From assembly GCA_022599775.1 (NCBI GenBank), contig JAHZLQ010000008.1, forward strand, positions 1 to 64,000: DNA of 64,000 nt, in the 5' to 3' direction. The translations under genes were made by a program, and so were the position numbers. The DNA is from Gammaproteobacteria bacterium (lineage in GTDB: Bacteria > Pseudomonadota > Gammaproteobacteria > Nevskiales > Nevskiaceae). Shown piece by piece: positions 39,436 to 57,308 of this stretch (position 1 is its first letter; each line of letters starts with the position of its first letter). A model generated the notes under the pieces. The model did no database searches. It was not told the DNA's origin and saw only the letters and a list, made by a program, of their open reading frames with translations.

Positions 39436-39451
39436 TGAACTTTTCCCGTAA

Positions 39452-41085: not shown

Positions 41086-41940
41086 ATGATTCGTTCCCTA
41101 CTCTTCGTCCCTGCAGACAGCGAAAAGAAACTGGCCAAGGCCGCCTCCTGCGGCGCCGACGCGCTGATTCTCGACCTTGAGGATTCGGTACTGCCGGATC
41201 GCAAACCCGCCGCAAGAGCGATGTTGCGGGAGTACTGTTCCACCCCATCCGCATCCTCGCAGTTGTGGGTCCGCGTCAACGATCTGCGGTCCGGCGAACT
41301 GCTGAAGGATCTAGTGGAGACCGTACCGCTGCGGCCCGCGGGCATCGTGCTGCCGAAACTGTTCGGGCCGGAAGACCTGACCCGCGTCTCACACTATCTG
41401 GACGCCCTCGAAGCACAACATGAGCTGCCACCGGGCGACATCCGCATCATGCCGGTCGTGACCGAAACGCCCGCCTGCGTGCTCAGGCTCGGCGAAATGA
41501 TCGGCCAGCCGCAGCCGCGACTCAGCCACATGACCTGGGGGGGCGAGGATCTGAGCGCTGCCATGGGCGCCGGCGATCCGCGCGCCGAGGACGGCTCCTG
41601 GCGGCCGACGTATGCGTTCGCACGGACGCAGTGCCTACTCACGGCGCACGCGATGGGGGTCGAGGCGATCGACACGCTCTATATCGATTTTCGCGATACC
41701 GATGGCCTCATGCAGGCCTGCCGCGAATCCCGTCACAGCGGCTTCACCGGTCGGCTGGCGATCCACCCCAATCAGGTAGCGACGATCAATGAAGCGTTCA
41801 CGCCGACCGAGGCCGAACGCGCGCTCGCCAAACGGATCGTCGAGGCTTTCGCGTCCGGCGCCGGCGCGGTCTCCATCGACGGCAAGATGTACGACATCCC
41901 GCACCTCAAGACTGCGCAGCGGCTGCTCGGATCGAGCTAG
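41086..41940 (+). CDS. CitE-like (HpcH/HpaI family) CoA lyase
   Basis: A 284-residue TIM-barrel lyase beginning MIRSLLFVPADSEKKLAKAA. It shows the CitE family features: LILDLEDSVLPDRKPAAR (metal-site Glu/Asp), VNDLRSGE, VTETPACVL, THMTWGGEDLS-like SHMTWGGEDLSAAMGA and GRLAIHPNQV. These enzymes cleave or condense citramalyl-, malyl- or related 3-hydroxy-acyl-CoA esters. It is the only plus-strand gene between 38 and 52 kb and is divergent from the HMGS-like gene. With the MaoC protein next door it may process a short branched acid left after ring opening. Confidence 0.88.
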   Translation: MIRSLLFVPADSEKKLAKAASCGADALILDLEDSVLPDRKPAARAMLREYCSTPSASSQLWVRVNDLRSGELLKDLVETVPLRPAGIVLPKLFGPEDLTRVSHYLDALEAQHELPPGDIRIMPVVTETPACVLRLGEMIGQPQPRLSHMTWGGEDLSAAMGAGDPRAEDGSWRPTYAFARTQCLLTAHAMGVEAIDTLYIDFRDTDGLMQACRESRHSGFTGRLAIHPNQVATINEAFTPTEAERALAKRIVEAFASGAGAVSIDGKMYDIPHLKTAQRLLGSS

Positions 41941-41964
41941 CCGTCCAACAACGAACCGCGGAGC

Positions 41965-42423
41965 TCAGGCGGCGGGGCGTTTCAGCTGCAGGCCGCTGCG
42001 CTTGCAGTGCGCCACCAGAACGTCGTCCTGATTGAAGCAGCGGTGCATGAACACCACAATGCCGGCGTTGGGGCGCGAACGGCTTTCCCGCAGGTCCAGA
42101 ACTTCGGTTTCAACGTGAATCGTATCGCCGTGAAAAAGCGGATGCGGAAAACGAACCTCGTCCCATCCCAGGTTGGCGACGGCGGTCCCGAAGGTGGTTT
42201 CGTTGACGGAGATCCCCGTCATCAGCCCCAAGGTAAAGGCGCTGTTGACGATACGGCGGCCGAACTCGGTGTGTTCCCGGCAATAGTGCTCATCCAGATG
42301 GATCAGCGCCGGATTGTGGGTGTTGGTCGTGAAGCCGACGTTGTCGGCTTCCGTAATCGTTCGACGGATCGGGTGCTTGAAAATCTGTCCGACCTTGAGC
42401 TCCTCGAAATACAGGCCCGGCAT
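41965..42423 (-). CDS. MaoC-family dehydratase/hydratase
   Basis: A 152-residue single hot-dog MaoC protein (LYFEELKVGQIFKHPIRRTI start) with the motif TNTHNPALIHLDEHYC, then GRRIVNSAFTLGLMTG and FPHPLFHGDTI. Mesaconyl-CoA or 2-enoyl-CoA hydratase activity is typical for this type, which fits the CitE-like lyase encoded convergently 24 bases away (mesaconyl-CoA to citramalyl/methylmalyl-CoA to cleavage). It lies 14 bases after the acyl-CoA dehydrogenase and shares its transcript. Confidence 0.87.
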   Translation of the reverse strand: MPGLYFEELKVGQIFKHPIRRTITEADNVGFTTNTHNPALIHLDEHYCREHTEFGRRIVNSAFTLGLMTGISVNETTFGTAVANLGWDEVRFPHPLFHGDTIHVETEVLDLRESRSRPNAGIVVFMHRCFNQDDVLVAHCKRSGLQLKRPAA

Positions 42424-42437
42424 GGGTCTTGTCCCCT

Positions 42438-43604
42438 TCAGTATGATTTCGGAAGGTCGAGCACGCGCTCGCTGATGAACGACAGAATCATCTGTTCGGT
42501 CACAGGCGCGATGCGCGGCAGCATCGACTCACGGAACAGGCGCTCCACCTGGAATTCGCGAGCATAGCCCATACCGCCATGGGTCAGCACCGCCTTGGTC
42601 GCCGCGTCGAAGCCGGCGCGCGCCGACAGGAATTTGGCGGCGTTGGCCTCGGCACCGCAGGGCAGTTTATTGTCATAAAGAAAGGCCGCGCGCATGCACA
42701 TCCAGTAGGCCGATTCGAGATAGGTCCAGGCTTCGGCCAGAGGGTGCTGTATCCCCTGATTCATGCCGATGGGTCGCCCGAACACCACGCGCTCGCCGGC
42801 ATATTTGGCGGCGCGCCGCAATGCATCCCGACCGATGCCGATGGCTTCGATACCGACCAGCACGCGTTCCGGATTGAGGCTGTCGAGCAGATAGTAGAAG
42901 CCCTTGCCTTCCTCTCCGATCCGATCTTCCTCGGGCACGAAGTAGTCGTCGATGAAGGTCGCGTTGGAGTCCACGGCGTTGCGGCCGAGCTTCTTGATTC
43001 GCCGCACCTCGATCTGGCTTCGGTCGAGATCGGTATAGAACAGGGTCATGCCATCGGCTGGGCGCTTGCAGTCCGCCTTGGGCGTGGTTCGCGCCAGCAG
43101 GACGATCTTGTGCGCTTCCTGACCGGTGGACGTCCACATCTTGCGGCCGCTGACGCGATAACCGCCCTCGACTTTCTTGGCGAAGGTTTTGATGCTGGTG
43201 GTATCGAGGCCGGCGTCCGGTTCGGTCACGCCGAAGCAGGCCTTCTGCTCGCCCAGAACCAGCGGCGTGAGCCAGCGCTGTTTCTGCTCCGGGGTGCCAT
43301 GCACGACGATGGCGTGCGGTCCGAACAGATTGATGTGGATGCTGGATGCGGCCGCCTGACCACCGCCGCTGGAGGCCACCGCGTGCATCATGATCGCCGC
43401 CTCGGTAACGCCGAGGCCGGCACCGCCGACTTCCTCCGGCATGGTGATGCCCAGCCAGCCGGCCGCTGCCATCGCCTTGTAGAACTCCTCGGGGAAGCGG
43501 GCCTCCTCGTCGCACTCGTGCCAATAGTCGTCGGTGAATTCCGCACACACCTTGCGCACCGAAACGTCGATTTCCTGCTGCAATTCTGAGAGTTGAATGT
43601 CCAT
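42438..43604 (-). CDS. Acyl-CoA dehydrogenase
   Basis: A 388-residue acyl-CoA dehydrogenase starting MDIQLSELQQEIDVSVRKVC, with FAD-binding CFGVTEPDAGLDTTSIKTFA and KMWTSTGQEAHKIVLLARTT, FGRPIGMNQGIQHPLAE, and THGGMGYAREFQVERLFRE near the end. The ATG at 43604 has GAAGGA nine bases upstream; the open frame continues far into the next gene but only as a shadow. It may desaturate a cyclic or branched CoA ester (the AliB-type step in cyclohexanecarboxylate breakdown is one option). It is in an operon with CoA-transferase and MaoC genes. Confidence 0.9.
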   Translation of the reverse strand: MDIQLSELQQEIDVSVRKVCAEFTDDYWHECDEEARFPEEFYKAMAAAGWLGITMPEEVGGAGLGVTEAAIMMHAVASSGGGQAAASSIHINLFGPHAIVVHGTPEQKQRWLTPLVLGEQKACFGVTEPDAGLDTTSIKTFAKKVEGGYRVSGRKMWTSTGQEAHKIVLLARTTPKADCKRPADGMTLFYTDLDRSQIEVRRIKKLGRNAVDSNATFIDDYFVPEEDRIGEEGKGFYYLLDSLNPERVLVGIEAIGIGRDALRRAAKYAGERVVFGRPIGMNQGIQHPLAEAWTYLESAYWMCMRAAFLYDNKLPCGAEANAAKFLSARAGFDAATKAVLTHGGMGYAREFQVERLFRESMLPRIAPVTEQMILSFISERVLDLPKSY

Positions 43605-43618
43605 GCGCTTTTCGTCCT

Positions 43619-44272
43619 TCAGCCGATACCGGGGCCGAGGCGAAACTCGGCTTCGGTGCGTGATTTGATGTCGTCCAGGCTGACGCCGTCCGCGAGCTCC
43701 ACCAGCGTCGCGCCGCTGCCGCCGTGGCGGTCGATCTCGAACACCGCCAGATCGGTGATCAACAGGTCGACCACGCCCTTGCCGGTCAGCGGCAGCGAGC
43801 ATTCCTTCCTGAATTTGGCGCCGCCGTTCTTGTCGCAATGGTCCATCACCACCACGACGCGCCGCACGCCGGCGACCAGGTCCATCGCTCCGCCCATGCC
43901 CTTGATCATCTTGCCGGGCACCATCCAGTTGGCGAGGTCGCCGTTCTGCGCCACTTCCATGCCGCCGAGAATCGACAGGTTGATGTGTCCGCCGCGGATC
44001 ATCCCGAAGCTGTCTGCCGAGGAGAAGTAGCTGGTCTGCGGCAGTTCGGTGATGGTCTGCTTGCCGGCGTTGATGAGATCGGCGTCGACTTCGTCGTCGT
44101 AGGGAAAGGCGCCCATGCCGAGCATGCCGTTCTCGCTTTGCAGCGTGACCTTCATGCCTTCGGGAATCATGTTGGCGACCATCGTCGGAATGCCGACGCC
44201 GAGGTTGACGTAGAACCCGTCTTCGAGTTCCCGGGTGGCGCGCAGCGCCATCTGTTCGCGTGTCCAGGCCAT
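43619..44272 (-). CDS. scoB: 3-oxoacid CoA-transferase, beta subunit
   Basis: A 217-residue class I CoA-transferase beta subunit with the catalytic Glu in LQSENGMLGMG, then DADLINAGKQTITELP, SADSFGMIRGGHI and ILGGMEVAQNGDLANWM, all as in succinyl-CoA:3-ketoacid CoA-transferases. The intact Glu argues against the steroid ring hydrolases IpdAB, which share the fold but have a different active site. It starts at 44272, sharing one base with the alpha subunit stop (TAATG). Confidence 0.9.
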   Translation of the reverse strand: MAWTREQMALRATRELEDGFYVNLGVGIPTMVANMIPEGMKVTLQSENGMLGMGAFPYDDEVDADLINAGKQTITELPQTSYFSSADSFGMIRGGHINLSILGGMEVAQNGDLANWMVPGKMIKGMGGAMDLVAGVRRVVVVMDHCDKNGGAKFRKECSLPLTGKGVVDLLITDLAVFEIDRHGGSGATLVELADGVSLDDIKSRTEAEFRLGPGIG

Positions 44273-45009
44273 TAGCGTTCGACTCCGGTGGCGGCCTGCG
44301 AGGCCTCGGCCCGCGGCCGGGTGGTGCGGCGTTCGATGTGCTTGACGTAGTTCCTGCCCTGCAGGATGCGGTCGACGAAGATGCCGGGCGTGTGGATGGC
44401 ATCGGGGTCGAGTTCGCCCGGTTCGACCAGGATCTCGACTTCGGCCACGGTCACCTTGCCGGCGGTGGCGATCATCGGATTGAAGTTGCGCGCGGTCTTG
44501 CGGTAGACGAGGTTGCCTTCGCTGTCGCCCTTCCAGGCCTTGACGATGGACAGGTCGGCGGTGAGGCCGGTTTCCATGACGTAGTGCTCGCCGTTGAACT
44601 CGCGGGTTTCCTTGCCCTCGGCGATCATCGTGCCGTAGCCGGTGCGCGTGTAGAACGCGGGGATGCCGGCGCCGCCGGCGCGGATACGCTCGGCCAGGGT
44701 GCCCTGGGGGTTGAATTCGATCTCGATCTCGCCGCTCATGAACTGCTGGGCGAGAATCTTGTTTTCGCCGACATACGAGGCCAGCACTTTCCTGATCTGG
44801 CCGTTGGCCAGCACCAGCCACATGCCGTGCTCGTCACAGCCGACGTTGTTGCCGATCACGGTCAGCTCGCGCGCCCCGGAGTCGCGCAGGGCGACGATCA
44901 GGTTTTCGGGTACGCCGCACAGGCCAAAGCCGCCGGCCATGACGCTCATACCGTCGAAGGTGAGGCCCTCCAGCGCGCTGGCGGCATCTGGGTAGATTTT
45001 TGAACTCAC
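44272..45009 (-). CDS. scoA: 3-oxoacid CoA-transferase, alpha subunit
   Basis: A 245-residue class I CoA-transferase alpha subunit with the glycine-rich CoA loop MAGGFGLCGVPENLI near residues 21-35, SNNVG-like IGNNVGCDEHG, GTLAERIRAGGAGIPAFYTRTG and REFNGEHYVMETGL. Together with the beta subunit it moves CoA between succinyl-CoA and a 3-oxoacid. Start is GTG at 45009, with AGGAG six bases upstream. The two genes overlap by one base. Confidence 0.9.
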   Translation of the reverse strand: MSSKIYPDAASALEGLTFDGMSVMAGGFGLCGVPENLIVALRDSGARELTVIGNNVGCDEHGMWLVLANGQIRKVLASYVGENKILAQQFMSGEIEIEFNPQGTLAERIRAGGAGIPAFYTRTGYGTMIAEGKETREFNGEHYVMETGLTADLSIVKAWKGDSEGNLVYRKTARNFNPMIATAGKVTVAEVEILVEPGELDPDAIHTPGIFVDRILQGRNYVKHIERRTTRPRAEASQAATGVER

Positions 45010-45112
45010 GCCGATCTCCTCCGGGGTTCTGGCCAGTCACGCCAGATTTCTTGCCAATCATCATCCGCTTGATCCTGTTGACCGGACCGAAGCCGAATTC
45101 GCTAATGAATGC

Positions 45113-46033
45113 TCAGACCGGGTCCCAGACAAAGACGTCCGAGGAACGCTCGAGCTTGTAGAACGATGGACGCAGCGCCGGTATTGCTCGCTCGATACAT
45201 GACGACGGCGTCCAGCCTTCTCCCGCGTGTACGGAACGAATCGGCCGTGGCTGGCTGAACAGATAGATTTCGTTGCGACGTACGCCGAAAATCTGTCCGC
45301 TCACGTCCTTGGCCCGGTCGCAGCACAGCGCCACGACGAACGGCGCGATCTTTTCCGGCGACATCTGCTTGTTGACGCGGATACGTTCGGCGTTTTCGGG
45401 CGTGTCGGGAATCGAACCGACCATGCGTGTCCATGCGAACGGTGCAATCGCGTTGGAACGAACACCGAATTTGGCCATGTCCAGCGCGATGGATTTGGAC
45501 AGCGCCGCGACGCCCATCTTGGCAGCGGCATAGTTCGCCTGACCGAAGTTGCCGACCAGCGCACTGGTCGAGGTCATATGCACGAAGGCACCTTTCTGCG
45601 AGGCCTTGAAATGCGGCGCCGCCGCGCGTGCCACGTTGAAGCAGCCCTTCAGATTGACGGCCAGTACCGCATCCCATTCCGACTCGGACATCTTGTGAAA
45701 GATCGTGTCCCGCAGAATCCCGGCATTGTTGACGATCGCGTCCACGTCGCCATAGGCTTTCATCGCCGTGGCGAACAGGCCGTGCGCGCCGTCCCAGCTG
45801 GCAACGTTGTTGCCATCGGCGATGGCTTCGCCGCCTCCGGCCTTGATCTCCGCCACGACTTCCTCGGCGGGGCCGAGGCTGCCGCCCTCGCCTTCCTGGC
45901 TGACACCGAGATCATTGACCACCACGCGGGCGCCTTCGCGCGCCGCCAGCTTCGCGATTTCGGCACCGACTCCGCGGCCCGCACCGGTGACGATGAGGAC
46001 CTTACCGTCCATTACACCTTTGCTCATTTGCAT
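45113..46033 (-). CDS. HSD17B4-like short-chain dehydrogenase with C-terminal extension
   Basis: A 306-residue SDR with TGAGRGVG, VVNDLGVS, VNNAGILRDTIFHKM, TSTSALVGNFGQ, and catalytic YAAAK. This is the pattern of (3R)-hydroxyacyl-CoA dehydrogenases from multifunctional enzymes. After the usual end of such SDRs (FGVRRNEIYLFSQPRPIRSV) about 40 further residues follow, a tail seen in related catabolic SDRs. GGGAG precedes the first ATG at 46033; a second ATG at 46027 is also possible. Confidence 0.88.
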   Translation of the reverse strand: MQMSKGVMDGKVLIVTGAGRGVGAEIAKLAAREGARVVVNDLGVSQEGEGGSLGPAEEVVAEIKAGGGEAIADGNNVASWDGAHGLFATAMKAYGDVDAIVNNAGILRDTIFHKMSESEWDAVLAVNLKGCFNVARAAAPHFKASQKGAFVHMTSTSALVGNFGQANYAAAKMGVAALSKSIALDMAKFGVRSNAIAPFAWTRMVGSIPDTPENAERIRVNKQMSPEKIAPFVVALCCDRAKDVSGQIFGVRRNEIYLFSQPRPIRSVHAGEGWTPSSCIERAIPALRPSFYKLERSSDVFVWDPV

Positions 46034-46062
46034 CTACTCCCGAAATTCATGGGCGCTCGGGC

Positions 46063-47319
46063 TCAGAGCCCATCACGCATTTCGCTCCATGTTCGTTCCA
46101 ATTCGTCGCGAAACTGGGGCGCGGCGATGCGGATCATGGCCCTGGCACGTTCGTGCAGGGATAGACCGCCCAGTTCGGCGACACCGTATTCAGTAACAAC
46201 CGTATCCGCCGCGTGACGCGGCAAGGCTGCCATCGCCTGCTTTCCGACATTCAGCACCACGCGGCTGAAGCGACCATCGTCGGTCGCGGCCGGCAGCACG
46301 ATGATCGACCGCCCGCCCGGCGACAGCGATGCGCCGGCGGCAAAGGCCGGCAGGCCGCCGACGCCGGCGACATAGCGGCCCTTGATCATGTCTGCGTTGG
46401 CTTGGCCGAACAGATCGACCTCGATCGCGGAATTGATGGCGCAGAAGCGTTCGATCCGCATCAGGCGGGCGACATCGTGGGTTTCGTTGACCGGGCGGAA
46501 ATAGAAGGCATCGTCGCGGCTGACGCGGTCGTAGAGCGCCGCCTCACCGAGGGCCACGCCGCCCTCCACGGAGGCTTCGCCGTGTACGGCGCCGCTGTCG
46601 AGCAGCGTCAGCACCGAGGAGGCGATCATCCCGGACCAGATTCGCAGATTGCGATGGTCGACCAGGGCGGCCGCAATCGCGGCCGGTAATTTGCCGACGC
46701 CGAATTCGATGGTATCGCCATCCCGCACGAGTTCGGCCACCAGCGCAGCCTGACGGCGCAGCCGGTCATCGGCGGCATCCGCCGGTTCCGAAAGTTGTAC
46801 CAGCGGCGAAGGCTCGTCGATGATCGCGTCGAGCTCGGACACATGAATCCGGAACGAACCGCGGGTCTTCGGCATGTCCGGATTGACGTGCGCAAGGCGT
46901 TGGCGCGCGCGGCTCCAGACCGCGGGATGAAAGTCATACGACAGGCCGGGCGAACAAAAACCCTTTTCGTCCGGCGGGCTGACCTGGACTACCGCCACGT
47001 CGACCTCCAGGCCGGCGAGATCGCGGTAGATGCGCGGATGATCCAGCGGCATCAGTTCGCCACGGCCGCTGGCCAGCCCGGCGCGCAGGCCCGGCAGCAT
47101 GAAATACGCGCGCTGTCGCGCCTGCGCGTGCAGGCCGAGATAGTCGCTGCGATTGATTCCCGGAAAATGCATGCCCACGAACCGCACGCCGGCCGCGGAT
47201 TCGGGCGCCCCCTGCAAGGCCTTGTAGATCGCCAGGCTCTCGCCCGACACGCCGGGCAGATAGACCGTCGTCTGCGGACGCAGCGTCTTGACCCATTGGC
47301 TGGAACTGAGCGTGTGCAT
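46063..47319 (-). CDS. Acetyl-CoA hydrolase/CoA-transferase family protein
   Basis: A 418-residue member of the acetyl-CoA hydrolase/transferase (class I, Cat1-like) family. It shows GMHFPGINRSDY, VSPPDEKGFCSPGLSYDF, EFGVGKLPAAIAAAL, and the active-site region FCAINSAIEVDLFGQANAD with the expected catalytic Glu in SAIEVD. It would hydrolyse a CoA ester or pass CoA to another acid, perhaps recycling CoA from a pathway end-product. It is placed between an SDR and the MaoC pair in one long operon. Confidence 0.86.
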   Translation of the reverse strand: MHTLSSSQWVKTLRPQTTVYLPGVSGESLAIYKALQGAPESAAGVRFVGMHFPGINRSDYLGLHAQARQRAYFMLPGLRAGLASGRGELMPLDHPRIYRDLAGLEVDVAVVQVSPPDEKGFCSPGLSYDFHPAVWSRARQRLAHVNPDMPKTRGSFRIHVSELDAIIDEPSPLVQLSEPADAADDRLRRQAALVAELVRDGDTIEFGVGKLPAAIAAALVDHRNLRIWSGMIASSVLTLLDSGAVHGEASVEGGVALGEAALYDRVSRDDAFYFRPVNETHDVARLMRIERFCAINSAIEVDLFGQANADMIKGRYVAGVGGLPAFAAGASLSPGGRSIIVLPAATDDGRFSRVVLNVGKQAMAALPRHAADTVVTEYGVAELGGLSLHERARAMIRIAAPQFRDELERTWSEMRDGL

Positions 47320-47321
47320 CG

Positions 47322-47741
47322 TCAGTCGCCGACGTCCAGCGCGATCGTCGCCGTCCCGCGCGTGGCGACGCGTCCGTCCGGCAAGCTCAATTCCAGTGCC
47401 AGCGTGGCACTTTCGGCATTCCTGGATTCAAGCGTGGCGCGGCAATGCAGCGCCTGCCCGACCGGAATGATCGCGGCAAATCTGGCGCTGAAACCGCGGA
47501 TCGATTCCACCGGCAGCTCTTCGCAAAGCAGGCATCCCAGACGCGCCATGCCGAACATGCCGTGAACGATCACATCGTCGAAGCCGGCCTGGCGCGCGAA
47601 CGCCGGGTCGAGATGCAGGGGATTGCTGTCACCGGAGGCCGATGCATAGGCCTGCAGCGACTCACGCGAAACGGCGGGGGTTGTCGCTTCGATCAGCACG
47701 TCGCCCGGACTCAATTCGCGCAGGGTCTGCAGGGCCGTCAT
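47322..47741 (-). CDS. MaoC-domain hydratase, catalytic subunit of a split pair
   Basis: A 139-residue single hot-dog protein with the intact hydratase motif ASGDSNPLHLDPAFARQAGF and VIVHGMFGMA. Its ATG overlaps the stop of the next upstream gene as ATGA. That neighbour is an N-terminal-type hot-dog protein lacking the motif, so the two probably form a heteromeric enoyl-CoA hydratase like HadAB or the ChsH1/ChsH2 type. Confidence 0.87.
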   Translation of the reverse strand: MTALQTLRELSPGDVLIEATTPAVSRESLQAYASASGDSNPLHLDPAFARQAGFDDVIVHGMFGMARLGCLLCEELPVESIRGFSARFAAIIPVGQALHCRATLESRNAESATLALELSLPDGRVATRGTATIALDVGD

Positions 47742-48169
47742 TGCGCGGCTCCGCGCTGGGGGTTTCTAACCAGAACCAGTTGGCGCGAGCATCCGACCAG
47801 GCGGCCGTCCTGCCGCTGCATGGCGGCCTCGATCACGATGAACTCCATCGCGCCGTTCTTCTTGTCGTAGATATCGGTCACCGAGCGGCGCACGCTCAGG
47901 CGCTCACCGACACGGATCGGTTCGAGATAGTCGAAACTTTGCTCTGCGTGCAGGACCCGCTTGAGTTCGACCCCGAGCGCATCGAGGATGCGGCGCGAGC
48001 TGTCATTCTCGCCCTCGATGACTTTCATGAACGTCAACGGTGCCACATCGGGATCCACGCGCGAACGATCGACGCCGATCGCCGAGGCGAAACGTTCGAC
48101 CCGCTCCCGGCTGACTTCGAACTCGTAGTCGGGCAGCGAGTAGCCGATGAAGCTGCGATCCACGGCCAT
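47738..48169 (-). CDS. FAS1-like dehydratase (MaoC_dehydrat_N) subunit
   Basis: A 143-residue hot-dog protein starting MAVDRSFIGYSLPDYEFEVS, with TFMKVIEGEND, HAEQSFDYLEPIRVGERLSV and VTDIYDKKNGAMEFIVIE. It corresponds to the N-terminal, non-catalytic half of double-hot-dog hydratases and binds the acyl chain in such pairs. It is translationally coupled on both sides (TGATG with the FadB-like gene upstream, ATGA with the catalytic MaoC subunit downstream). Confidence 0.86.
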   Translation of the reverse strand: MAVDRSFIGYSLPDYEFEVSRERVERFASAIGVDRSRVDPDVAPLTFMKVIEGENDSSRRILDALGVELKRVLHAEQSFDYLEPIRVGERLSVRRSVTDIYDKKNGAMEFIVIEAAMQRQDGRLVGCSRQLVLVRNPQRGAAQ

Positions 48170-49458
48170 CAGGCCAGCGCCGTACCGGCATCAGCCAGAA
48201 AACGGTCCGCAGCATCGGGCCACGCAAACGCCGCGCCGTGCTGGCCCGCCAGTTCTGCCGCGCTGACCCGCAAGGCGTCCAGGTCGCTCTGCAACAAGAA
48301 AGTGTACGGCCCCCCGGTGAAGGCCGGACACAAGCCTTTTTCAACCACAGCCACGTCAGCCAGCGCGGGAATGGAAACCTTGTCGTCTCCCCAACAGCGA
48401 GCGGCCTCCAGAGCGATGGCGAGAATTCGGGCGTCCTCATCCAGCGACATCGCCTCGCATCCCGCCTGGACCGCACGCAAGCGAGGCAGCAAGGCCTTGT
48501 CGCCCTGCTCTAGCGGGCCGCTGGAATCGAGTAGTCCCTGCTTCTTGGCCGTCTGCCGGTTGAGAAACAAGGTGCGGACCATGTTTCCCGCCACACGGTC
48601 GCGGATGAGATCGACAAAAATGTCCATCTCGTGATGCAGCGCCTCGTCGACCGGAAGTGACCAGCCTTCGACGACACAGCGCATGATCGCGCGGTACGCC
48701 GGGTAGCGGACACGCTGATAGACACTGATCCCAAGCGTGCCGGAGATCTCGTCATAAGCCCGCTCGGAGCCGAAGTCGAAGGGTGCGGAGTCGAATCTCG
48801 CCGTCGGCCGATCCCAGGGCGCAGACGGAGCAGCCAGTGTCCGCGCACGCTCCAATGCCGCGGCGATCAACTCGGCGGCCGGCACCAGTTCGTCGACCAG
48901 TCCAAGGCTCAAGGCTTCGTCGCGAGACAGGGATTGCCCGTGCAACAGACACTCCAGGCCCTTGCGCGCGCCGATCAGTCTCGGCAGGCGCTGCGTTCCA
49001 CCTGCCCCGGGGAGCAGGCCGAGCTTGATTTCGGGCAGACCAAGGCCCACGTTTTCATCGTTCGCCGCAATGCGTGAATGGCAGGCCAGACAGACCTCCA
49101 GACCGCCACCGAGCGCGAGCCCGTTGATCGCCGCGACATACGGCTTGCGACTGGTTTCGATGCGCCGAAACAGCCGCCCGAGCCGGCCACACAGATCGTG
49201 TAGTTGCTCGAAGGTGCCGGTCTTCGCCCGCTCCGTGAACACACGGATCATGTTCAGGTCGGCACCGACCAGAAACGTGGATTTCCCGGAGCTCAGCACC
49301 ACACCGCGCACTTCGGGATCGGACTCCGCGCGAACGATGATGGATTCCAGAGAATCCATCATATCCATCGAAAACACGTTCATCGCCCGACCGGGCATGT
49401 CGATCCGGGCCAGCAGCACGCCGCCCGGCTCCAGGCTGACACTGATATTTGAATCCAT
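48169..49458 (-). CDS. Shortened FadB/FadJ-like protein: crotonase domain plus dehydrogenase tail
   Basis: A 429-residue protein. Residues 1-290 are the hydratase domain of fatty-oxidation multifunctional enzymes, with both catalytic glutamates (Glu121 in LALGGGLEV and Glu143 in GLPEIKLG) and the following helix (VRYPAYRAIMRCVVEGWSLP). The NAD-binding Rossmann domain is absent; after a short linker the last 100 residues resemble the final C-terminal domain of 3-hydroxyacyl-CoA dehydrogenase (ADVAVVEKGLCPAFTGGPYT). The usual length is about 715 residues, so about 300 have been lost from inside. Hydratase activity is expected, dehydrogenase activity not. ATG at 49458 is preferred to the longer reading to 49611. 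Confidence 0.85.
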   Translation of the reverse strand: MDSNISVSLEPGGVLLARIDMPGRAMNVFSMDMMDSLESIIVRAESDPEVRGVVLSSGKSTFLVGADLNMIRVFTERAKTGTFEQLHDLCGRLGRLFRRIETSRKPYVAAINGLALGGGLEVCLACHSRIAANDENVGLGLPEIKLGLLPGAGGTQRLPRLIGARKGLECLLHGQSLSRDEALSLGLVDELVPAAELIAAALERARTLAAPSAPWDRPTARFDSAPFDFGSERAYDEISGTLGISVYQRVRYPAYRAIMRCVVEGWSLPVDEALHHEMDIFVDLIRDRVAGNMVRTLFLNRQTAKKQGLLDSSGPLEQGDKALLPRLRAVQAGCEAMSLDEDARILAIALEAARCWGDDKVSIPALADVAVVEKGLCPAFTGGPYTFLLQSDLDALRVSAAELAGQHGAAFAWPDAADRFLADAGTALA

Positions 49459-49471
49459 CACGGTCCGCTGC

Positions 49472-50263
49472 TCAGACGTACTTCTTGAAGTCCGGCTTGC
49501 GCTTCTCGTTGAAAGCGCGAACGCCCTCGCGCGATTCCTCGCTCTGGTAGAAGCCCTTGACCGCGGCCACGCCCAGGAACAGGTTGCCGCGGATAGTTTC
49601 GCTGTCTGCATTGAACGAGCGCTTGACGATGGCGATGGCTGTCGGGCTCATGGCATTGATTTCCGCCGCCCACTTCTCGCACTCCGCGTCCAGCTGGTCG
49701 TGCGGCACCACCGTGTTCGCCAGACCCATCTCCAGCGCCTGCTGGGCGGTGTACTGGCGGCACAGGAACCAGATCTCCCGCGCTTTCTTCTCGCCAACGA
49801 TGCGAGACAGATAGGCGGTACCGAAACCCGGATCGGCCGATCCGACCTTGGGCCCTGCCTGGCCGAACTTGGCCTTCTCCGAGGCGATGGTCAGATCGCA
49901 GATCGTGGCGAACACATTGCCGCCACCGATGGCGAAGCCGTTGACGCGCGCGATGACCACCTTGCGGCAATCACGCATCGCCGACTGCAATTCCTCGATC
50001 GGCAGGCCGACCATGCCCCGCGGACCGTACAGGCCGTCCTCGGACTGGTGCACCTTCTGGTCGCCGCCGGTGCAGAACGCCTTGTCGCCCGCGCCGGTGA
50101 GGATGATGCTGTTGACCGACTTCTCTTCGTCGGCGGCGCGGAAGGCAAGGATCAGCTCCTCGACCGTCTGGGTACGGAAGGCGTTATAGACCTCCGGGCG
50201 GTTGATGGTGATGCGGACGGCGTTCTCGCCGACTTCATAAATGATGTCTTTGTATTCGGACAT
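49472..50263 (-). CDS. badI: BadI-like 2-ketocyclohexanecarboxyl-CoA hydrolase
   Basis: A 263-residue crotonase-fold enzyme strongly resembling BadI of Rhodopseudomonas palustris over its whole length (YKDIIYEV start; GDKAFCTGGDQ; GLPIEELQSAMRD; GFAIGGGNVFATICDLTIAS; GSADPGFGTAYLSRIVGEKK; SREGVRAFNEKRKPDFKKY end). BadI opens the ring of 2-ketocyclohexanecarboxyl-CoA to pimeloyl-CoA. EchA20-type steroid ring hydrolases are relatives and cannot be excluded. AGGAG lies six bases before the ATG. A BadH homologue is the upstream gene. Confidence 0.88.
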   Translation of the reverse strand: MSEYKDIIYEVGENAVRITINRPEVYNAFRTQTVEELILAFRAADEEKSVNSIILTGAGDKAFCTGGDQKVHQSEDGLYGPRGMVGLPIEELQSAMRDCRKVVIARVNGFAIGGGNVFATICDLTIASEKAKFGQAGPKVGSADPGFGTAYLSRIVGEKKAREIWFLCRQYTAQQALEMGLANTVVPHDQLDAECEKWAAEINAMSPTAIAIVKRSFNADSETIRGNLFLGVAAVKGFYQSEESREGVRAFNEKRKPDFKKYV

Positions 50264-50289
50264 GATCCACTCCTGCTTTCTGTTTTTTT

Positions 50290-50307
50290 GGCCGGCTTCT
50301 TCCGGCC
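50290..50307 (-). other. Intergenic hairpin between badH and badI
   Basis: GGCCGG-N6-CCGGCC is a perfect six-pair stem in the 82-base gap. The T-run is on the 5' side of the plus strand, so neither strand gives a standard terminator. In the badH-badI transcript it could mark a processing point or tune badI expression. Confidence 0.4.
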
Positions 50308-50345
50308 GAATTCAGTGTTGTCCTGCGTTATCGAGGCAAGCCCAG

Positions 50346-51113
50346 CTAGCCGTGCATGGTGAGCCCACCGGAGACACTGATGGTCTGCCCGGTCATGAAC
50401 GAAGCATCATCGCTGGCGAGAAACGCCACGAGCCCGGGGTAGTCTTCCGGTTCACCGATACGACCCAAGGGCACGCCGCGCACCATCGCGTCACGGATTT
50501 TCTGGCCAGCTTCTCCGGCGCCCACGAAAGCGTCCATCGCTGGCGTATTGGTCGGCCCCGGGCAAACGCAATTGAGCAGGACGTTGGCCCGCGAGACTTC
50601 ACGCGCCAGGGCCTTGGCGAAGGCGATCGTCGCGCCCTTGCAACCGGAGTAGACCACCTCACCACTGGAGCCGACGCGACCTGCGTCGGAGGCGATGAAG
50701 ACCACCCGACCACCCTTGCGCTCGACCATGCCCTGGACTACGGCGTGGGTCACCGTCAGGGGGCCCAGATAATTGATATTGACAACTTTCTGCCAGAAGT
50801 CCGGCGTTGTCTTCAGAAACGGCATCGGCCGATCCCAGCCAGCATTGTTTACCAAGGTCCAGGTCGGGCCGATGCGCGACTCGATGGCGGCCACCGCCTG
50901 CTTCACAGCCGCGGCATTCGTGATGTCGCAAATCTCGGCATCAGCCTTTCCGCCAGCCTGTGTGATCGCATCGACCGTCGCCTTTGCGGCTTCCTCGTTG
51001 ATATCCAATACGCCGACGGTCATCCCCTCGCTCGCCAACCGCATCGCGACCGACTTTCCGATTCCGCTACCGGCACCTGTGACCAAGGCGACTTTGTCTG
51101 TCAATCCACGCAC
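50346..51113 (-). CDS. badH: BadH-like 2-hydroxycyclohexanecarboxyl-CoA dehydrogenase
   Basis: A 255-residue SDR closely matching BadH: TGAGSGIGKS, VNNAGWDRPMPFLKT, ASDAGRVGSSGEVVYSGCKG with catalytic Tyr/Lys, NCVCPGPTNTPAMDA, VPLGRIGEPEDY and the ending GQTISVSGGLTMHG. BadH oxidises 2-hydroxycyclohexanecarboxyl-CoA to the 2-keto ester that BadI then opens. Start is GTG at 51113, with AGGAG six bases upstream. A perfect motif C operator lies 44 bases upstream. It likely heads the long minus-strand operon to 41965. Confidence 0.87.
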   Translation of the reverse strand: MRGLTDKVALVTGAGSGIGKSVAMRLASEGMTVGVLDINEEAAKATVDAITQAGGKADAEICDITNAAAVKQAVAAIESRIGPTWTLVNNAGWDRPMPFLKTTPDFWQKVVNINYLGPLTVTHAVVQGMVERKGGRVVFIASDAGRVGSSGEVVYSGCKGATIAFAKALAREVSRANVLLNCVCPGPTNTPAMDAFVGAGEAGQKIRDAMVRGVPLGRIGEPEDYPGLVAFLASDDASFMTGQTISVSGGLTMHG

Positions 51114-51156
51114 ACTACGCTCCTCACCATTGAATTCTGGACTGTCTTGTCAATTC

Positions 51157-51170
51157 GTATGGCACCATAC
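51157..51170. promoter_or_regulatory. Motif C operator candidate, perfect copy (GTATGGCACCATAC)
   Basis: A perfect GTATGG-N2-CCATAC inverted repeat. On the minus strand a TTGACA sequence (51153-51148) follows it, so the operator sits at the -35 region of the badH promoter. Confidence 0.65.
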
Positions 51171-51204
51171 TACCAGCTTGTCGCGCCGGCGGGTACCCTC
51201 GCGC

Positions 51205-52275
51205 CTACGGCATCTTCGCCGCATGGCTCTGGTCGGTGAACTTGTCGTAGTAGATGGATTCCAGGTCGATGCCGAGCGCGGTCAGCTTGGCGATTCCGGC
51301 ATCGATCATTCCCGGCGGACCGCACATGTAACCATCAGCGCTCGCGATGTCCACACCCGGCAGAACATCCTCGACGAACTCTGTCACCAATCCGCGTGCA
51401 CCTTTCCAGTCAGTATCCGCAGCCTCATGCGAAAGCACCGGAAGAAACACGAACTGATCGGTCCATGCATTGGCGATGCTTTCGATCTGCTCGATCGCAT
51501 AGAGGTCGGCTTGCGTCCGCGCACCGAACAGCAGGGCACAGGGTCGCTTGATTCTCTTGAATCTCGCGTCCTCCAGTAGGCTCAGCAAGGGTGCCAGCCC
51601 GCTTCCGCCGGCGATACAGATCATCGGGCTGCTGCCGGGGCGCAGATAGAACCCGCCATAGGGCGCCGAGATATCGAAGCGCACGTCCTTCAACTCACCG
51701 GCGAATAGCGCTTCGGTAAAGGCGCCGCCCGGCACCTTGCGGATGAAGAACTTGACCAGGCTTCGTCCTTCACGCTCGGGCGCATCAGCGAACGAATAGT
51801 TACGCGGAGCCGGCAGGCCTTCATAGGCAATGTTGATGTACTGGCCGGCAATGAACTTTGCCGCCTTGTCGAGTTCGATACTGACCTGAAGGATGTCATG
51901 CGTGAGCTGGACGGTGGCCGCGATCTGGCCCTTGCACTGGATCACCGGCGGCGCATCTGCGGCGGGGCTCTCGACCTCCAGGCGCGTCAGCGGATCCTTG
52001 GGGATCGCCTGGCAGGCCAGGATGTAGCCGGCCGCAATCTCCTGCTGGGAAAGCGTATAGCCGAAGTCCGACAGTGCGCGCACCCGGCCTTCCTGCAACT
52101 TGGATTTGCAGGAACCACAAGTGCCGACAGTGCAGTTGTGCGGATACGGCACACCGTTCTCCAGCGCCGTCTCGAGTATGGTTTGCCCACCGGGAATTTC
52201 GAACCTCGCGCCGAATGGCGCCACTTCGACGTATTTGGTTTCCTTGGGCCTGAAGATCGATTTTAGAAAGCTCAT
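51205..52275 (-). CDS. 2Fe-2S ferredoxin/FAD/NAD(P)H oxidoreductase (oxygenase reductase type)
   Basis: A 356-residue electron-transfer protein. A plant-type ferredoxin domain comes first (cysteines in NCTVGTCGSC and LACQ, about 48-90). A FAD domain (RNYSFAD) and an NAD domain (CIAGGSGLAPLLSLLED; GYMCGPPGMID) follow. This order is that of reductases for benzoate-type dioxygenases and several monooxygenases. No oxygenase partner is encoded in the window, so it serves an enzyme elsewhere. I start at the ATG at 52275; the longer reading to 52380 lacks support. The badH operator region lies just beyond its stop. Confidence 0.88.
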   Translation of the reverse strand: MSFLKSIFRPKETKYVEVAPFGARFEIPGGQTILETALENGVPYPHNCTVGTCGSCKSKLQEGRVRALSDFGYTLSQQEIAAGYILACQAIPKDPLTRLEVESPAADAPPVIQCKGQIAATVQLTHDILQVSIELDKAAKFIAGQYINIAYEGLPAPRNYSFADAPEREGRSLVKFFIRKVPGGAFTEALFAGELKDVRFDISAPYGGFYLRPGSSPMICIAGGSGLAPLLSLLEDARFKRIKRPCALLFGARTQADLYAIEQIESIANAWTDQFVFLPVLSHEAADTDWKGARGLVTEFVEDVLPGVDIASADGYMCGPPGMIDAGIAKLTALGIDLESIYYDKFTDQSHAAKMP

Positions 52276-52451
52276 CGTGCGAATTGGACTCGTCGTTGCA
52301 TGAATGTGGATCGGTGGGTGCACGCACAGGACAGCCGAGCGAAGCTCGGGCGTCGATCGGTGGAGGCGTTCGTTCGACACACAAGCCGCTTCCCCCGCCC
52401 GATCGTGACGCCTGTTCGAGTATCGCTTACCGACGCGTCTGGCGCGTTTGC

Positions 52452-52457
52452 TAGAAT
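52452..52457 (+). promoter_or_regulatory. Possible -10 box of the MarR gene
   Basis: TAGAAT lies 65 bases before the MarR start in the 246-base divergent gap to the reductase gene. No clear -35 or operator is seen, so this is a weak call. Confidence 0.3.
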
Positions 52458-52521
52458 TCGCGGAACGCTGGAGCCGCTCGCGCTTCCGCGGGCCGATCGC
52501 GCCACACCAAGGATTGCTCCA

Positions 52522-53130
52522 ATGCCCACAAAGAAAATCAACCGCAGCTTGCCGGCGAAGAAGGCTGCGCCCGCCAAGTCCGCGGGGAAGCGGACGGTCA
52601 CATCGCGACCCGCGCGAACATCGGCGAAAGCAGCGCCTCCGCTGCCACGTGGATCCGAACGATTGGTCGACGACGATGTAGGACGAGAGGGCATTCGCCT
52701 AAGCTTCCTGATTCACGATGTATCGCGCATGCGCCGCAGCGCCTACGACCAGTTCATGAAGCCGCTTCGGGTCACTCGTGCGCAATGGTGGGTGCTGGCG
52801 CACCTGTCGCGCCACGACGGCATGATGCAGACGCAGCTTGCCGAGGTGCTTGACGTGGGCAAGGCCAGCCTGGGAGACGTGGTTGGATCGCTGGAAGCCG
52901 CCGGCCTGGTCGACCGCCGCGCGGACCCGAGCGACAAGCGCGCGAGGCGGGTCTACCTGACGCGTCGCGCGCAGGCGCTGATCAAGCGCATGACTCGGAT
53001 GGAGGTGGACTTCAACGAGCAGATTCTCGCGGCCATTTCGCCGGAAGAACGGCTCAGGCTCATCGATTCCCTCACGCATATCAAGGCGGCCCTCGCCGAG
53101 TTCGTCAGCTCGGGCCGCACGGCTGTCTGA
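52522..53130 (+). CDS. MarR-family transcriptional regulator
   Basis: A 202-residue regulator with a basic Lys/Ala/Pro-rich N-terminal arm of about 50 residues, then the MarR winged helix: MKPLRVTRAQWWVLAHLSRH, QTQLAEVLDVGKASLGDVV, and the wing DRRADPSDKRARRVYLT. The BadR regulator of cyclohexanecarboxylate genes in R. palustris is also a MarR protein, so control of badH/badI is a reasonable guess. The ATG at 52522 has AAGGA nine bases upstream. It is divergent from the reductase gene and could be the reader of motif C. Confidence 0.88.
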   Translation: MPTKKINRSLPAKKAAPAKSAGKRTVTSRPARTSAKAAPPLPRGSERLVDDDVGREGIRLSFLIHDVSRMRRSAYDQFMKPLRVTRAQWWVLAHLSRHDGMMQTQLAEVLDVGKASLGDVVGSLEAAGLVDRRADPSDKRARRVYLTRRAQALIKRMTRMEVDFNEQILAAISPEERLRLIDSLTHIKAALAEFVSSGRTAV

Positions 53131-53162
53131 GCCCGCATACGCGGACAATCGATACGAAATGC

Positions 53163-53192
53163 GGAGCCCGGCTACGCGAGCAGTCGGGCTCC
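53163..53192. terminator. Probable bidirectional terminator between MarR and receptor genes
   Basis: GGAGCCCG and CGGGCTCC form a perfect eight-pair stem with a 14-base loop, between the convergent MarR and TonB-dependent receptor genes, three bases from the receptor stop. The following TGTTCATT is only weakly T-rich. Confidence 0.5.
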
Positions 53193-53195
53193 TGT

Positions 53196-55640
53196 TCATT
53201 CTGCCGAGAACCTGTGTCCGATCGTGATTCCATAGGTCAGCGGCATGCCCACATAACGCACCGTGGCGTCATAGACCTTGGTTGCCTGGGTCCAGTAGTA
53301 CTCATCGGTGACGTTCTTGCCGAATACGGCGAGGGTCCATGCGCCATCCGCCGATTCCAGTCCGGCCCGCAGATCCAGCAGGCCATAACTGTCGATCTTC
53401 AAGGAAGCGTTGCCCTGTTCAACGCTGTCGGATGCCACGAACTGCCCTTGTGAGTCCGTCTGGTAACGATAGTCGGCGGACAGTGAGGCGATCATGCCGG
53501 ACGGCAAACTCCACTCGTAGCGCAGACCGACATTGGCCGACCATTCCGGCACGCCGGGGAACGAATAACCGTCAAAATCCGTGGGCGTCGGAGCGGCCCC
53601 GGTCTCCGGATCCGGCTGGGCAAACGGATCATAGGTAAGAAACGTGCCGTCGACTTCCGGATCCAGCCAGGTTAGGCCCGCGTTCACCCGCAGATGATTG
53701 TCCGGACGCCAGGTCGCGGTCAGCTCCGCCCCGTTCTCGACCGATTTCGGGACATTGACGAGGGCATCGATAATTCCGAACACACCGGTCGGGTCGAGCA
53801 CCTTGCCACGCAGCTGCTTGTCCTCGTACTCATAGCGGAACACCGCGCCGCCCAGGCTCAGGGCATAGTCAAACAGCTCGGTCTTGAATCCCAGCTCGTA
53901 GGCTCGCAGGGACTCCTGAGTCACCGGCGCGAACTGAATGACGCCCGTTCCCGGCAAGGTCGGGAAAGAGCCGGCCTTGTAGCCCTGACTCACAGTGGCG
54001 TAGATCAAGGTGTCGTCGAACCCCGTCCAGTCCGCACCGACCCGCCACGACACATTGTCTTCATCGAGCGAAAGGTGTTGCAAACCCGGCATGAAGTCGG
54101 AACCGAAGGTGACGCAGTCTCCTGGCTGCAGATCGAAACCGAACGGCGCGAACGAGGCGGCGAAATTCGGATCGACCACATACAGGCAGGCGTCGAAGTC
54201 CATCTTGGTCTCGGTGTAGCGCGCTCCACCGTGAATGCTTAGCTCATCGAAAAGCTGGTATTCCAGATTGCCGAACACCGCCTTGGCGTTGACGGTCGGC
54301 TCAGCGACCGTACCGATCGTCGAAAAGCTGGGTGCGCCGCCGAGTTCCGGCTGATGCCCCGGTGACGAATCCGGAAGAATCCCGACGTTGTTTTCCTTGG
54401 TTTCGTCCTTGGAATAAGTCAAGCCAGCCAGCCAGTGCAGGCGATCATCGCTGGCGACACCGGCCAGACGAAGCTCCTGCACCAGCGAATCGACGGTGCC
54501 GCGCTGACGTTCCGCGTTGTTGTCGAGACTCATGCCGTCGTTTTCGACGAGATTGTCCTGCCGATAGCGCTGAATGGAGCTGATCGATGTCAGGTCGATG
54601 GAATCCGACAGCACGTAGTCAACGCGCAACGACGTCTGGAAGAAGGTCTCATCGAGGCTTGGCGGCGAGTCAGGGCTCCAGTCTGCAGCGCGCGACGATT
54701 CCCGCGGTGCCAGCGGGTAGGCTAGCGTTTCCGGCACATACTCCGCGGCTGCCGGCACCTGCAGGTTGACCGCGTAAAGCTGGGACGCCATGGCGTCGGA
54801 GCGATCGGTCCAGCCATTGATATTGAGCGATACCTTGAGCGTTTCCAGCGCTTGCCAGTCCAGCAGCAGGCGTGCGCGCTTCATGTCGTTATCACCGAGG
54901 CTGCCGCCGTGGGTATAACTTTTCTGCCACGCTCCACCTTCAGACATGTCAAAGGCCACGCGAGCATTCAGCTGATCCGTCAGCGGCCCGCTGAAGTAAC
55001 CGTTGAGATTGGTTTCGTCGAAGCGCTCATATGTGAAATTGACGGCGGACGTGTAGTAGTCGGTTGGCTTGGCCGCGATGTAGTCGATTGCGCCGCCCGT
55101 CGCATTCTGTCCAAACAGGGTCCCCTGCGGCCCCTTGAGAATCTCCACGCGCTCGATATCGAGCGGCGCGCCCTTGGTCAAGGCCGGATAAGCGTAGGGC
55201 ACCTCGTCAACATAGATGCTGACAGTCGGACTCGCGGCCAACGACTGCTCGTTGTAGCCGATGCCTCGTATTGAATACACCGGCGTTCCGTAGAACGCTT
55301 GGGAGACGACAAAGCTCGGCTCGACCTTGGTGAGATCACCCACATCCCGTATGCCTGCATCGCGCAATTGCTCGCCACTCAGTGCAGTAATCGCCATGCC
55401 GACATCGTTGATCGACTGCTGGCGCTTCTGAGCCGTCACCACGATTTCCTCGATGACGCCGCGTCTCGCCTCGGTAACGGCCCCTGTTTCCGAATTGTCT
55501 TGTTCAGGTTCATCTGTAGACACCTGCGCATGGGCCGGAATGCTCAGGCCCGCCGTCAGACATATTGTCCAGACCCACCGATTCAATGCACCAGAAACAG
55601 GCAAGATCGGCCCTGCCGAAAATAGCTTGAGTTCTAACAC
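53196..55640 (-). CDS. TonB-dependent outer-membrane receptor
   Basis: An 814-residue receptor: signal peptide (ICLTAGLSIPAHA), TonB box EEIVVTAQKR (about 68-77), plug domain with the GIGYNEQSLAAS and VEILKGPQGTLFGQNATGG motifs, then a 22-strand-type barrel to YGITIGHRF. VTAQKR-type receptors are abundant in degraders of hydrophobic compounds and siderophore/terpenoid users; the ligand is unknown. Start is GTG at 55640, with GGAGGAG upstream; no in-frame ATG lies nearby. It needs the ExbB/ExbD/TonB complex encoded at 33787-36947. Confidence 0.93.
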   Translation of the reverse strand: MLELKLFSAGPILPVSGALNRWVWTICLTAGLSIPAHAQVSTDEPEQDNSETGAVTEARRGVIEEIVVTAQKRQQSINDVGMAITALSGEQLRDAGIRDVGDLTKVEPSFVVSQAFYGTPVYSIRGIGYNEQSLAASPTVSIYVDEVPYAYPALTKGAPLDIERVEILKGPQGTLFGQNATGGAIDYIAAKPTDYYTSAVNFTYERFDETNLNGYFSGPLTDQLNARVAFDMSEGGAWQKSYTHGGSLGDNDMKRARLLLDWQALETLKVSLNINGWTDRSDAMASQLYAVNLQVPAAAEYVPETLAYPLAPRESSRAADWSPDSPPSLDETFFQTSLRVDYVLSDSIDLTSISSIQRYRQDNLVENDGMSLDNNAERQRGTVDSLVQELRLAGVASDDRLHWLAGLTYSKDETKENNVGILPDSSPGHQPELGGAPSFSTIGTVAEPTVNAKAVFGNLEYQLFDELSIHGGARYTETKMDFDACLYVVDPNFAASFAPFGFDLQPGDCVTFGSDFMPGLQHLSLDEDNVSWRVGADWTGFDDTLIYATVSQGYKAGSFPTLPGTGVIQFAPVTQESLRAYELGFKTELFDYALSLGGAVFRYEYEDKQLRGKVLDPTGVFGIIDALVNVPKSVENGAELTATWRPDNHLRVNAGLTWLDPEVDGTFLTYDPFAQPDPETGAAPTPTDFDGYSFPGVPEWSANVGLRYEWSLPSGMIASLSADYRYQTDSQGQFVASDSVEQGNASLKIDSYGLLDLRAGLESADGAWTLAVFGKNVTDEYYWTQATKVYDATVRYVGMPLTYGITIGHRFSAE

Positions 55641-55789
55641 TGTAATACTCCTCCAACGCGTATGTATTTATGTTTATTCCGCGTCCTTGCAGAAGCATCC
55701 AGCTCATTGTCCCTTGGGGCGACTCTCCTAAAATTCCAAACAGGGAAAACCTCGATCCACCCCGGATCGGCGTTATGACTGCTCGAACG

Positions 55790-56956
55790 CTAAACGCCGT
55801 TACTGCCCAAGGCCTCTCGAAACATTGCCTTTCCGATGATGTGCTTCATGATTTCTATCGAACCGCCGGCGATCTTGACGATGCGTGCATCGGCGTAGGC
55901 CCGGGCGATCGGGTATTCCCACATGTAGCCCCAGCCGCCGAACAACTGAAGACATTCGTCGACGACCTTGCAATGAAGGTTCGAAAGCCACATCTTCGCC
56001 ATCGCCGCATCGACAGGGCTCAGCTCCCCTTTCATGAACTGCTCGATGCAACGGTCGGTGAACACGCGACCGATCACAGCCTCGGTATTGAGTTCGGCCA
56101 GCTTGAACTGCGTGTTCTGGAAGTCGGCGATGGTCTTGCCGAAGGCCTTGCGCTGAGCGGTGTACTCAACCGTCCAGCCGATCACCGTCTCAGCGACGGT
56201 TGCCGAACGGATCGCCTGCGCCAGCCGCTCCTGAGCGAGCTTGGTCATCATCAGCGAAAAGCCCTGCCCCTCCCCGCCCAGCATGGCCGACGCGGGCACT
56301 CGAAGATCCTCGAAGAACAGCTCCGAAGTGTCCTGTCCCTTGAGGCCCAGCTTCTCCAGATTCTGGCCGCGCTTGAACCCGGGTAGCGAGGTATCCACCA
56401 GGAACAGAGTGATTCCCTTGTCCTCCCCACTACCACCGGTCTTGGTCGCAAGCACCAATACGTCGCAGAGCTGTCCATTGGAAATGAACACCTTCTGGCC
56501 ATTGATGATGTAGTCGTCTCCATCCCTGATCGCAGAGGTGCGAATATTGCGGAGGTCCGAGCCCGCATGTGGCTCGGTCATGCCCAATGATCCGATCGCT
56601 TCGCCGGATACCATCTTGGGCAACCAATGCCGCTTCTGGTCATTGGTGCCGAACGAGTTGACGTAGGTCGCCACCAGGTCGCAATGGATCAGGAATCCCG
56701 GCCCCGTGAAACCGCTACGAGCAAGTTCTTCGAAGACCACCACGTCGAACAGATAATCCAGACCGAGGCCGCCGAATTCTTCGGCAATCGTGCAACAAAG
56801 CATCCCGGCCTCGCCGGCCTTGAGCCAAAGCTCGCGAGGCACGACGCCGGTCTCCTCCCACTGCTTGTGGAACGGCGCAATTTCCTTCTCGATGAACTTG
56901 CGGACCGACGCGCGGAACATCTCGTGTTCCTGCTCGAACAGATTTCTTTGAAACAT
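55790..56956 (-). CDS. Acyl-CoA dehydrogenase
   Basis: A 388-residue acyl-CoA dehydrogenase starting MFQRNLFEQEHEMFRASVRK, with GSLGMTEPHAGSDLRNIRTS, KVFISNGQLCDVLVLATKTG, QRKAFGKTIADFQNTQFKLA, LFGGWGYMWEYPIARAYADA and the end KIAGGSIEIMKHIIGKAMF. The Ser-Ile-Glu near the end resembles long-chain/isovaleryl-type enzymes. ATG at 56956 is chosen; an upstream in-frame ATG at 57022 would include the operator in the coding region. A perfect motif C site lies 30 bases upstream, implying co-regulation with badH. Confidence 0.9.
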   Translation of the reverse strand: MFQRNLFEQEHEMFRASVRKFIEKEIAPFHKQWEETGVVPRELWLKAGEAGMLCCTIAEEFGGLGLDYLFDVVVFEELARSGFTGPGFLIHCDLVATYVNSFGTNDQKRHWLPKMVSGEAIGSLGMTEPHAGSDLRNIRTSAIRDGDDYIINGQKVFISNGQLCDVLVLATKTGGSGEDKGITLFLVDTSLPGFKRGQNLEKLGLKGQDTSELFFEDLRVPASAMLGGEGQGFSLMMTKLAQERLAQAIRSATVAETVIGWTVEYTAQRKAFGKTIADFQNTQFKLAELNTEAVIGRVFTDRCIEQFMKGELSPVDAAMAKMWLSNLHCKVVDECLQLFGGWGYMWEYPIARAYADARIVKIAGGSIEIMKHIIGKAMFREALGSNGV

Positions 56957-57308
56957 AGTGAGGAGCTCTTCTAATTTCAGTATTTGTATGGAGCCATACT
57001 TTCCATTATTTATACCCCGCATCCCGCCCCAAGTCCACCTGTTTGATACCTATGAGATGTAATTGCACATGAAATCGGAGCCTCACCGGAACCCGCCGGA
57101 AAATCAGCTTCAAATGACCCCTTCCATCGACGGAAATTACCCTTTTGTCGGATGGCACCATACCGTTTCTTTTCACACGGGCACGATGCCGCATTGCAGG
57201 TGAGAATGGAGCTGAGACGTCCGCCGCGAAGTCGACAAGCGCGCCTCGCAAAAAGAAGGCCGATGCCACCTGCTTGTGTGACACCGGCCGGAAGGGAAGC
57301 TGTATTTC
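56957..57308 (-). promoter_or_regulatory. Control region with two motif C operators
   Basis: The 352 bases between the dehydrogenase start and the OmpA-family stop hold one perfect motif C (56986-56999, GTATGGAGCCATAC) and a second with one mismatch (57150-57163, GGATGGCACCATAC), 164 bases apart centre to centre. I see no credible gene: the only long minus-strand frame (57006-57284) has no family features and covers an operator. Two sites may permit DNA looping. Confidence 0.6.

Follow-up and report, generated by a model that had tools for sequence, protein, structure and literature searches.

Monoterpene ring cleavage in Castellaniella defragrans is encoded by a gene cluster with the published order mrcD-E-F-G-H (PMC4109377). 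The mrcF gene (1239 nt) specifies a product named perillyl-CoA hydratase, the MrcF protein was found in cells grown on phellandrene, and insertional disruption of mrcF abolished growth on limonene and on alpha-phellandrene (PMC4109377). The gene, the pathway step and the growth phenotype are thereby already known. The published description assigns MrcF simply to the hydratase/isomerase superfamily, and the terms FadB, multifunctional and truncated do not occur in the text of that paper (PMC4109377). From the gene length, we infer a short protein of 412 aa. Clusters of badKHI in other Aromatoleum strains are thought to serve monoterpene degradation as well (PMC9795900). The bifunctional enzymes of β-oxidation are described by the scheme of rat MFE1, in which A is the hydratase, B the linker helix H10, C the NAD domain, and D and E the repeats of the HAD (3-hydroxyacyl-CoA dehydrogenase) dimerisation domain (PMC10988713). 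The dehydrogenase site is built from C and D, whereas the hydratase site is covered by B, a helix that packs closely against E (PMC10988713). A FadJ-derived A-B-E origin of MrcF, with intermediates, was not found stated in the non-subscription literature, which is not proof of novelty. Outside subscription papers, the limonene and perillate literature under other names yielded nothing further on MrcF, and the literature search found no biochemistry of any MrcF.

The window (the whole 64,000-nt stretch of DNA that was analysed) carries an open reading frame at 48169..49458 on the minus strand, encoding a protein of 429 aa and free of internal stops. Seventeen orthologues that begin at the equivalent position, close to M-x-D-x-N-I, back the start at 49458. 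A longer alternative start at 49611 was also considered, and the same orthologues (n = 17) favoured the later one. At the other end, the stop codon overlaps the start codon of the downstream gene (TGATG, 48171-48167), so that an intact frame coupled to the next gene, as claimed in an earlier reading made from the sequence only, was confirmed.

Read from 51113 down to 47322, all on the minus strand, the genes follow the D-E-F-G-H order. The BadH/MrcD-like SDR (50346..51113; TIGR03206, 321 bits, below the cut-off of 431.2; 81% to Azoarcus sp. KH32C) is followed by the BadI/MrcE-like ring-opening hydrolase (49472..50263; 85% to KH32C), the 429-aa frame, and two MaoC-like subunits at the MrcG position (47738..48169; Pfam PF13452; 58% to KH32C) and the MrcH position (47322..47741; Pfam PF01575; 47% to KH32C). 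The hydrolase is BadI-like but not BadI by the TIGR03210 equivalog model (397.2 bits, cut-off 467.6). Next on the same strand come an acetyl-CoA hydrolase/transferase-like protein (46063..47319; Pfam and KH32C comparison) and a second SDR of the 3-hydroxyacyl-CoA dehydrogenase (MFE2-like) type (45113..46033; NCBIfam and KH32C comparison), beyond which lie an acid CoA-transferase pair, an acyl-CoA dehydrogenase and an (R)-specific-hydratase-like MaoC protein. The KH32C protein shows 53% to MrcF (PMC4109377) and 58% to the hydratase part of the window protein; through this link, and by synteny, the window gene is taken to be an mrcF orthologue.

The likeness extends beyond these genes. About 14 gene families are common to window positions 38233-57022 and the monoterpene-type region of the KH32C plasmid pAZKH, which was also set against the mrc cluster in PMC4109377, including an MrcB-like acyl-CoA dehydrogenase (55790..57022, minus strand) with 80% to the KH32C gene adjoining the mrcD-like gene. 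A large part of a degradation locus for cyclic terpenes or related alicyclic acids is thus probably present in the window. A ferredoxin-ferredoxin reductase fusion (51205-52380; BenC-like, below cut-off) lies directly upstream of the BadH-like gene and probably supplies electrons to an oxygenase whose gene is elsewhere. An AlkB-type hydroxylase found beside the mrcF-like cluster of a relative (L072) has a 52% homologue on the window’s own contig at 92979-94067, outside the window, which is a candidate for the first oxidation step. At 39452-40906, an HMG-CoA-synthase/KASIII-like protein is fused to a ChsH2-type zinc-ribbon/OB (DUF35) domain; this fusion adjoins a thiolase-like gene (38233-39495) and looks like a fused thiolase/aldolase partner.

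When the 429-aa protein was searched with Pfam, the enoyl-CoA hydratase domain alone was detected. NCBIfam ranked FadJ and FadB at the top, with a span of 3-307 that comprises the hydratase domain and the linker helix: residues 3-307 matched FadJ 5-299 (NF008363) with 207.8 bits, falling short of the full-length cut-off of 869 because the remainder of FadJ is missing. Domain A, of the crotonase/enoyl-CoA hydratase fold, occupies residues 1-260 (48679..49458; Pfam ECH_1 17-210). The crotonase glutamates E121 (codon 49096-49098) and E143 (49030-49032) are invariant across 32 aligned relatives, full-length enzymes among them, and the claim of a full hydratase domain with both catalytic Glu was thus upheld. 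Domain B, the linker helix region (H10; residues 270-308, 48535..48651), contains the FadJ-like “VAGNMVRTLFLNRQ” and appears in the AlphaFold model as helices 270-286 and 288-306.

The C-terminal tail (residues 320-429, 48172..48501) gave a less direct signal at first sight. Pfam searches of the tails of 20 members, each taken singly, returned no 3HCDH match, a method too insensitive for this purpose, and a single-sequence phmmer search gave a weak second stretch (318-412 on FadJ-type 596-690) with an independent E of 45. These two results would fit a plain crotonase that had acquired an unrelated helical tail with a chance likeness to FadB. When a tail-only profile was compared with 177,635 distinct PDB sequences, nine matches at E ≤ 10 were obtained. 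The first seven were FadB and trifunctional-enzyme alpha subunits, all within the last 130 residues (best E 8.9e-4); the eighth was a HAD fragment and the ninth an unrelated protein. By hhalign, the tail aligned with E 2.7e-10 over 101 columns to the C-terminal ends of nine full-length relatives gathered by N-terminal likeness, whereas the preceding domain (D) of the same nine proteins, used as a negative control, gave a probability of 0.2%. The AlphaFold model of the tail alone had a pLDDT of 93.9, and its matches 1-45 among PDB folds were all FadB, MFE1 and trifunctional alpha chains, with probabilities up to 1.00 and rmsd mostly 1.6-2.9 Å over ~82 residues; the 46th match had a probability of 0.03. 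The Foldseek E-values of these matches are not significant singly (0.24 and up, for a small domain); the weight lies on how uniform the list is. These three independent and more sensitive tests, the profile, hhalign with its control, and the structure, agree that the tail is homologous to the last FadB domain, the C-terminal repeat of the 3-hydroxyacyl-CoA dehydrogenase part (domain E), as had been suspected from the sequence. The FadB-type proteins matched by the tail are, moreover, those that match the N-terminal part, and an origin outside FadB is most improbable. As for the earlier idea of a retained “dimer or substrate tail”, the piece is indeed retained, but a substrate-binding role does not hold, since domain E is a repeat with a structural and not a catalytic function, keeping the linker helix in place.

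The window protein is therefore A+B+E of the MFE1 scheme, with C and D gone. About 290 residues are absent (429 aa versus 709-725 aa in full-length enzymes), and alignments with full-length and 534-537-aa forms place the deletion junction at residues 309-320 (48499..48534). The sequence-only reading, which had the central 300 residues and the NAD-binding domain deleted, was correct about the size of the loss, but two domains are missing rather than one. The whole-protein AlphaFold model was confident (pLDDT 93.6, pTM 0.90), also in the placement of the domains, and all 50 of the Foldseek matches listed were FadB, MFE1 or TFP alpha chains. Their rmsd of ~11 Å, probably because the search was unable to bridge the missing 290 residues, restricts this result to family identity, and the tail-only fold was used instead. 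With the NAD domain C and the catalytic dehydrogenase absent, the protein is FadB-derived and not FadB, and from its sequence it is predicted to be incapable of acting as a dehydrogenase.

Of 58 genomes from the taxonomic family to which the window belongs, 19 have an orthologue; 18 of these proteins are short (419-433 aa, the window protein among them) and the other has 534 aa. Short proteins with the same deletion, for which a search had been proposed, are thus common there, so that neither outcome named in advance as refuting the earlier reading, a tail unlike the dehydrogenase or a lack of similar short proteins, was observed. No further orthologues above the full-length FadJ-like background were found in 368 other genomes of the class or in the ~397 genomes sampled from the phylum. 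Intermediate forms of 534-537 aa occur in Azoarcus sp. Aa7, Aromatoleum toluclasticum and Azoarcus sp. KH32C (plasmid pAZKH). They retain ~105 residues between B and E, with VAV-x-G-E-G-x-E-A, or a further decayed version, where GxGxxG is expected, and GVW-A/S-P in place of the HFFSP segment, which carries the catalytic His. With both motifs replaced, these forms, too, most likely lack dehydrogenase function. Profile comparisons with the PDB and with FadJ NAD domains did not recognise their middle part as an NAD domain; its position and a few motif letters are suggestive of a domain C remnant. In a tree of the A+B part, the short and intermediate forms together were split from all 26 full-length enzymes (support 100/99), which indicates a single origin of this family apart from all of them. 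The intermediate forms grouped at 86/89, and the short forms made one clade in 68% of bootstraps, so that they represent one or two groups.

A deletion as large as this relative to FadB would also be expected of a broken gene on its way out. The 17 other short orthologues, however, match it in length, share 55-60% identity and have no stops, the catalytic glutamates are invariant, and the tail dN/dS between near pairs is 0.09-0.37, a range that points to purifying selection as expected for a working domain. The C. defragrans mutant without growth on limonene (PMC4109377) speaks in the same direction, and a decaying pseudo-enzyme is highly unlikely. In two pairs of mrcF-like genes (L019/L020 and L048/L053), synonymous divergence is 0.28-0.47 in the hydratase part and 1.0-2.0 in the tail; this jump may reflect recombination or tail exchange among relatives.

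Sequence, predicted structure, synteny and the published mrc genetics agree with a monofunctional hydratase that kept its tail while an SDR of the operon oxidises, as had been proposed; the SDR can now be specified as the adjacent BadH/MrcD-type enzyme. We consider it quite probable that the protein is an MrcF-type hydratase for a cyclic enoyl-CoA, derived from FadJ/FadB, with the SDR replacing the lost dehydrogenase. It would hydrate an intermediate of the cyclohex-1-ene-carboxyl-CoA type (perillyl-CoA or a close relative); the BadH/MrcD-like SDR next door would oxidise the 2-hydroxy product, and the BadI/MrcE-like hydrolase would open the ring. Both neighbours score below the NCBIfam cut-offs for BadH and BadI, so plain cyclohexanecarboxylate is an improbable substrate, and perillyl-CoA need not be the substrate either.

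The same architecture might also do a different job, hydrating the ring-opened (linear, branched) enoyl-CoAs later on, while the MaoC pair hydrates the cyclic enoyl-CoA. The two MaoC-like genes directly follow the window gene, and in steroid pathways MaoC heterodimers act on bulky CoA esters. The pair or one member is found near 12 of the 20 orthologues; against such a role, the pair is missing beside the other eight, whereas a BadI-like gene is near 19 of the 20. In the ring-cleavage clusters that have been published, furthermore, mrcF and badK-type genes are grouped with badH/badI (PMC4109377, PMC9795900). A later step is accordingly a minor possibility, and an MrcF orthologue acting ahead of the BadH-like and BadI-like steps is the simplest account. 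In L069 and L072, which lack the MaoC pair, a second plain crotonase (L069:9053-9838 and L072:11207-11992), PaaG/oxepin-CoA-hydrolase-like and below cut-off, lies between the BadI-like and mrcF-like genes.

For the origin of this enzyme, we propose that the ancestor was a full-length FadJ/FadB-type bifunctional enzyme, whose dehydrogenase part would have been free to decay because the SDR oxidised the cyclic substrate. Domain C would have lost its NAD and catalytic motifs and shrunk, D would have gone, and a short lineage would have emerged without all of C and D, although the order of losses may differ. Domain E may have been kept because it packs on linker helix B, which covers the hydratase site, and A+B+E would be a self-supporting hydratase. 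A more specific model couples stepwise internal erosion of a FadJ-type enzyme, with living forms of 720, 535 and 429 aa, to pairing between the E domains of two chains: with D no longer there as its partner, E would associate in the manner of the dimerisation domains in monofunctional dehydrogenases. This combination is speculative, and we regard it as rather doubtful.

These results give MrcF, a named yet structurally undescribed enzyme of a terpene pathway, a clear origin and a testable build, and they pose the question of which parts of a β-oxidation enzyme a hydratase needs once the dehydrogenase is removed. The length series amounts to a natural deletion experiment on domain dependence in MFE1/FadB, in which the short form is ~40% smaller than FadB. 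The build also explains why annotation pipelines apply the label “enoyl-CoA hydratase-related” with no visible tail.

Compared with known systems, the FadB/FadJ alpha subunit and rat MFE1 share domains A, B and E with the window protein, but they possess C (NAD binding) and D, both of which it lacks. BadK of Rhodopseudomonas palustris and Aromatoleum sp. CIB works alongside BadH and BadI at the equivalent step, where water is added to a cyclic 1-ene-carboxyl-CoA, yet it belongs to a different lineage inside the superfamily. BadK is a plain crotonase of about 258 aa; its single domain of ~260 aa contrasts with the 429 aa and domain E of the window protein. A BadK-type plain crotonase was ruled out for the window gene by this length, by domain E and by its nearest families, FadJ/FadB. 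The KH32C protein AZKH_RS24585 (WP_015452010; plasmid pAZKH, 537 aa), which by its place is the protein called BadK in PMC4109377, occupies the matching position in the operon, is 58% identical in the hydratase part and has the same domain E, and differs by ~105 extra residues between B and E. MrcF of C. defragrans (CDM25250) shares the D-E-F-G-H order, the short length and similar neighbours with the window gene, while its host and accessory genes are different.
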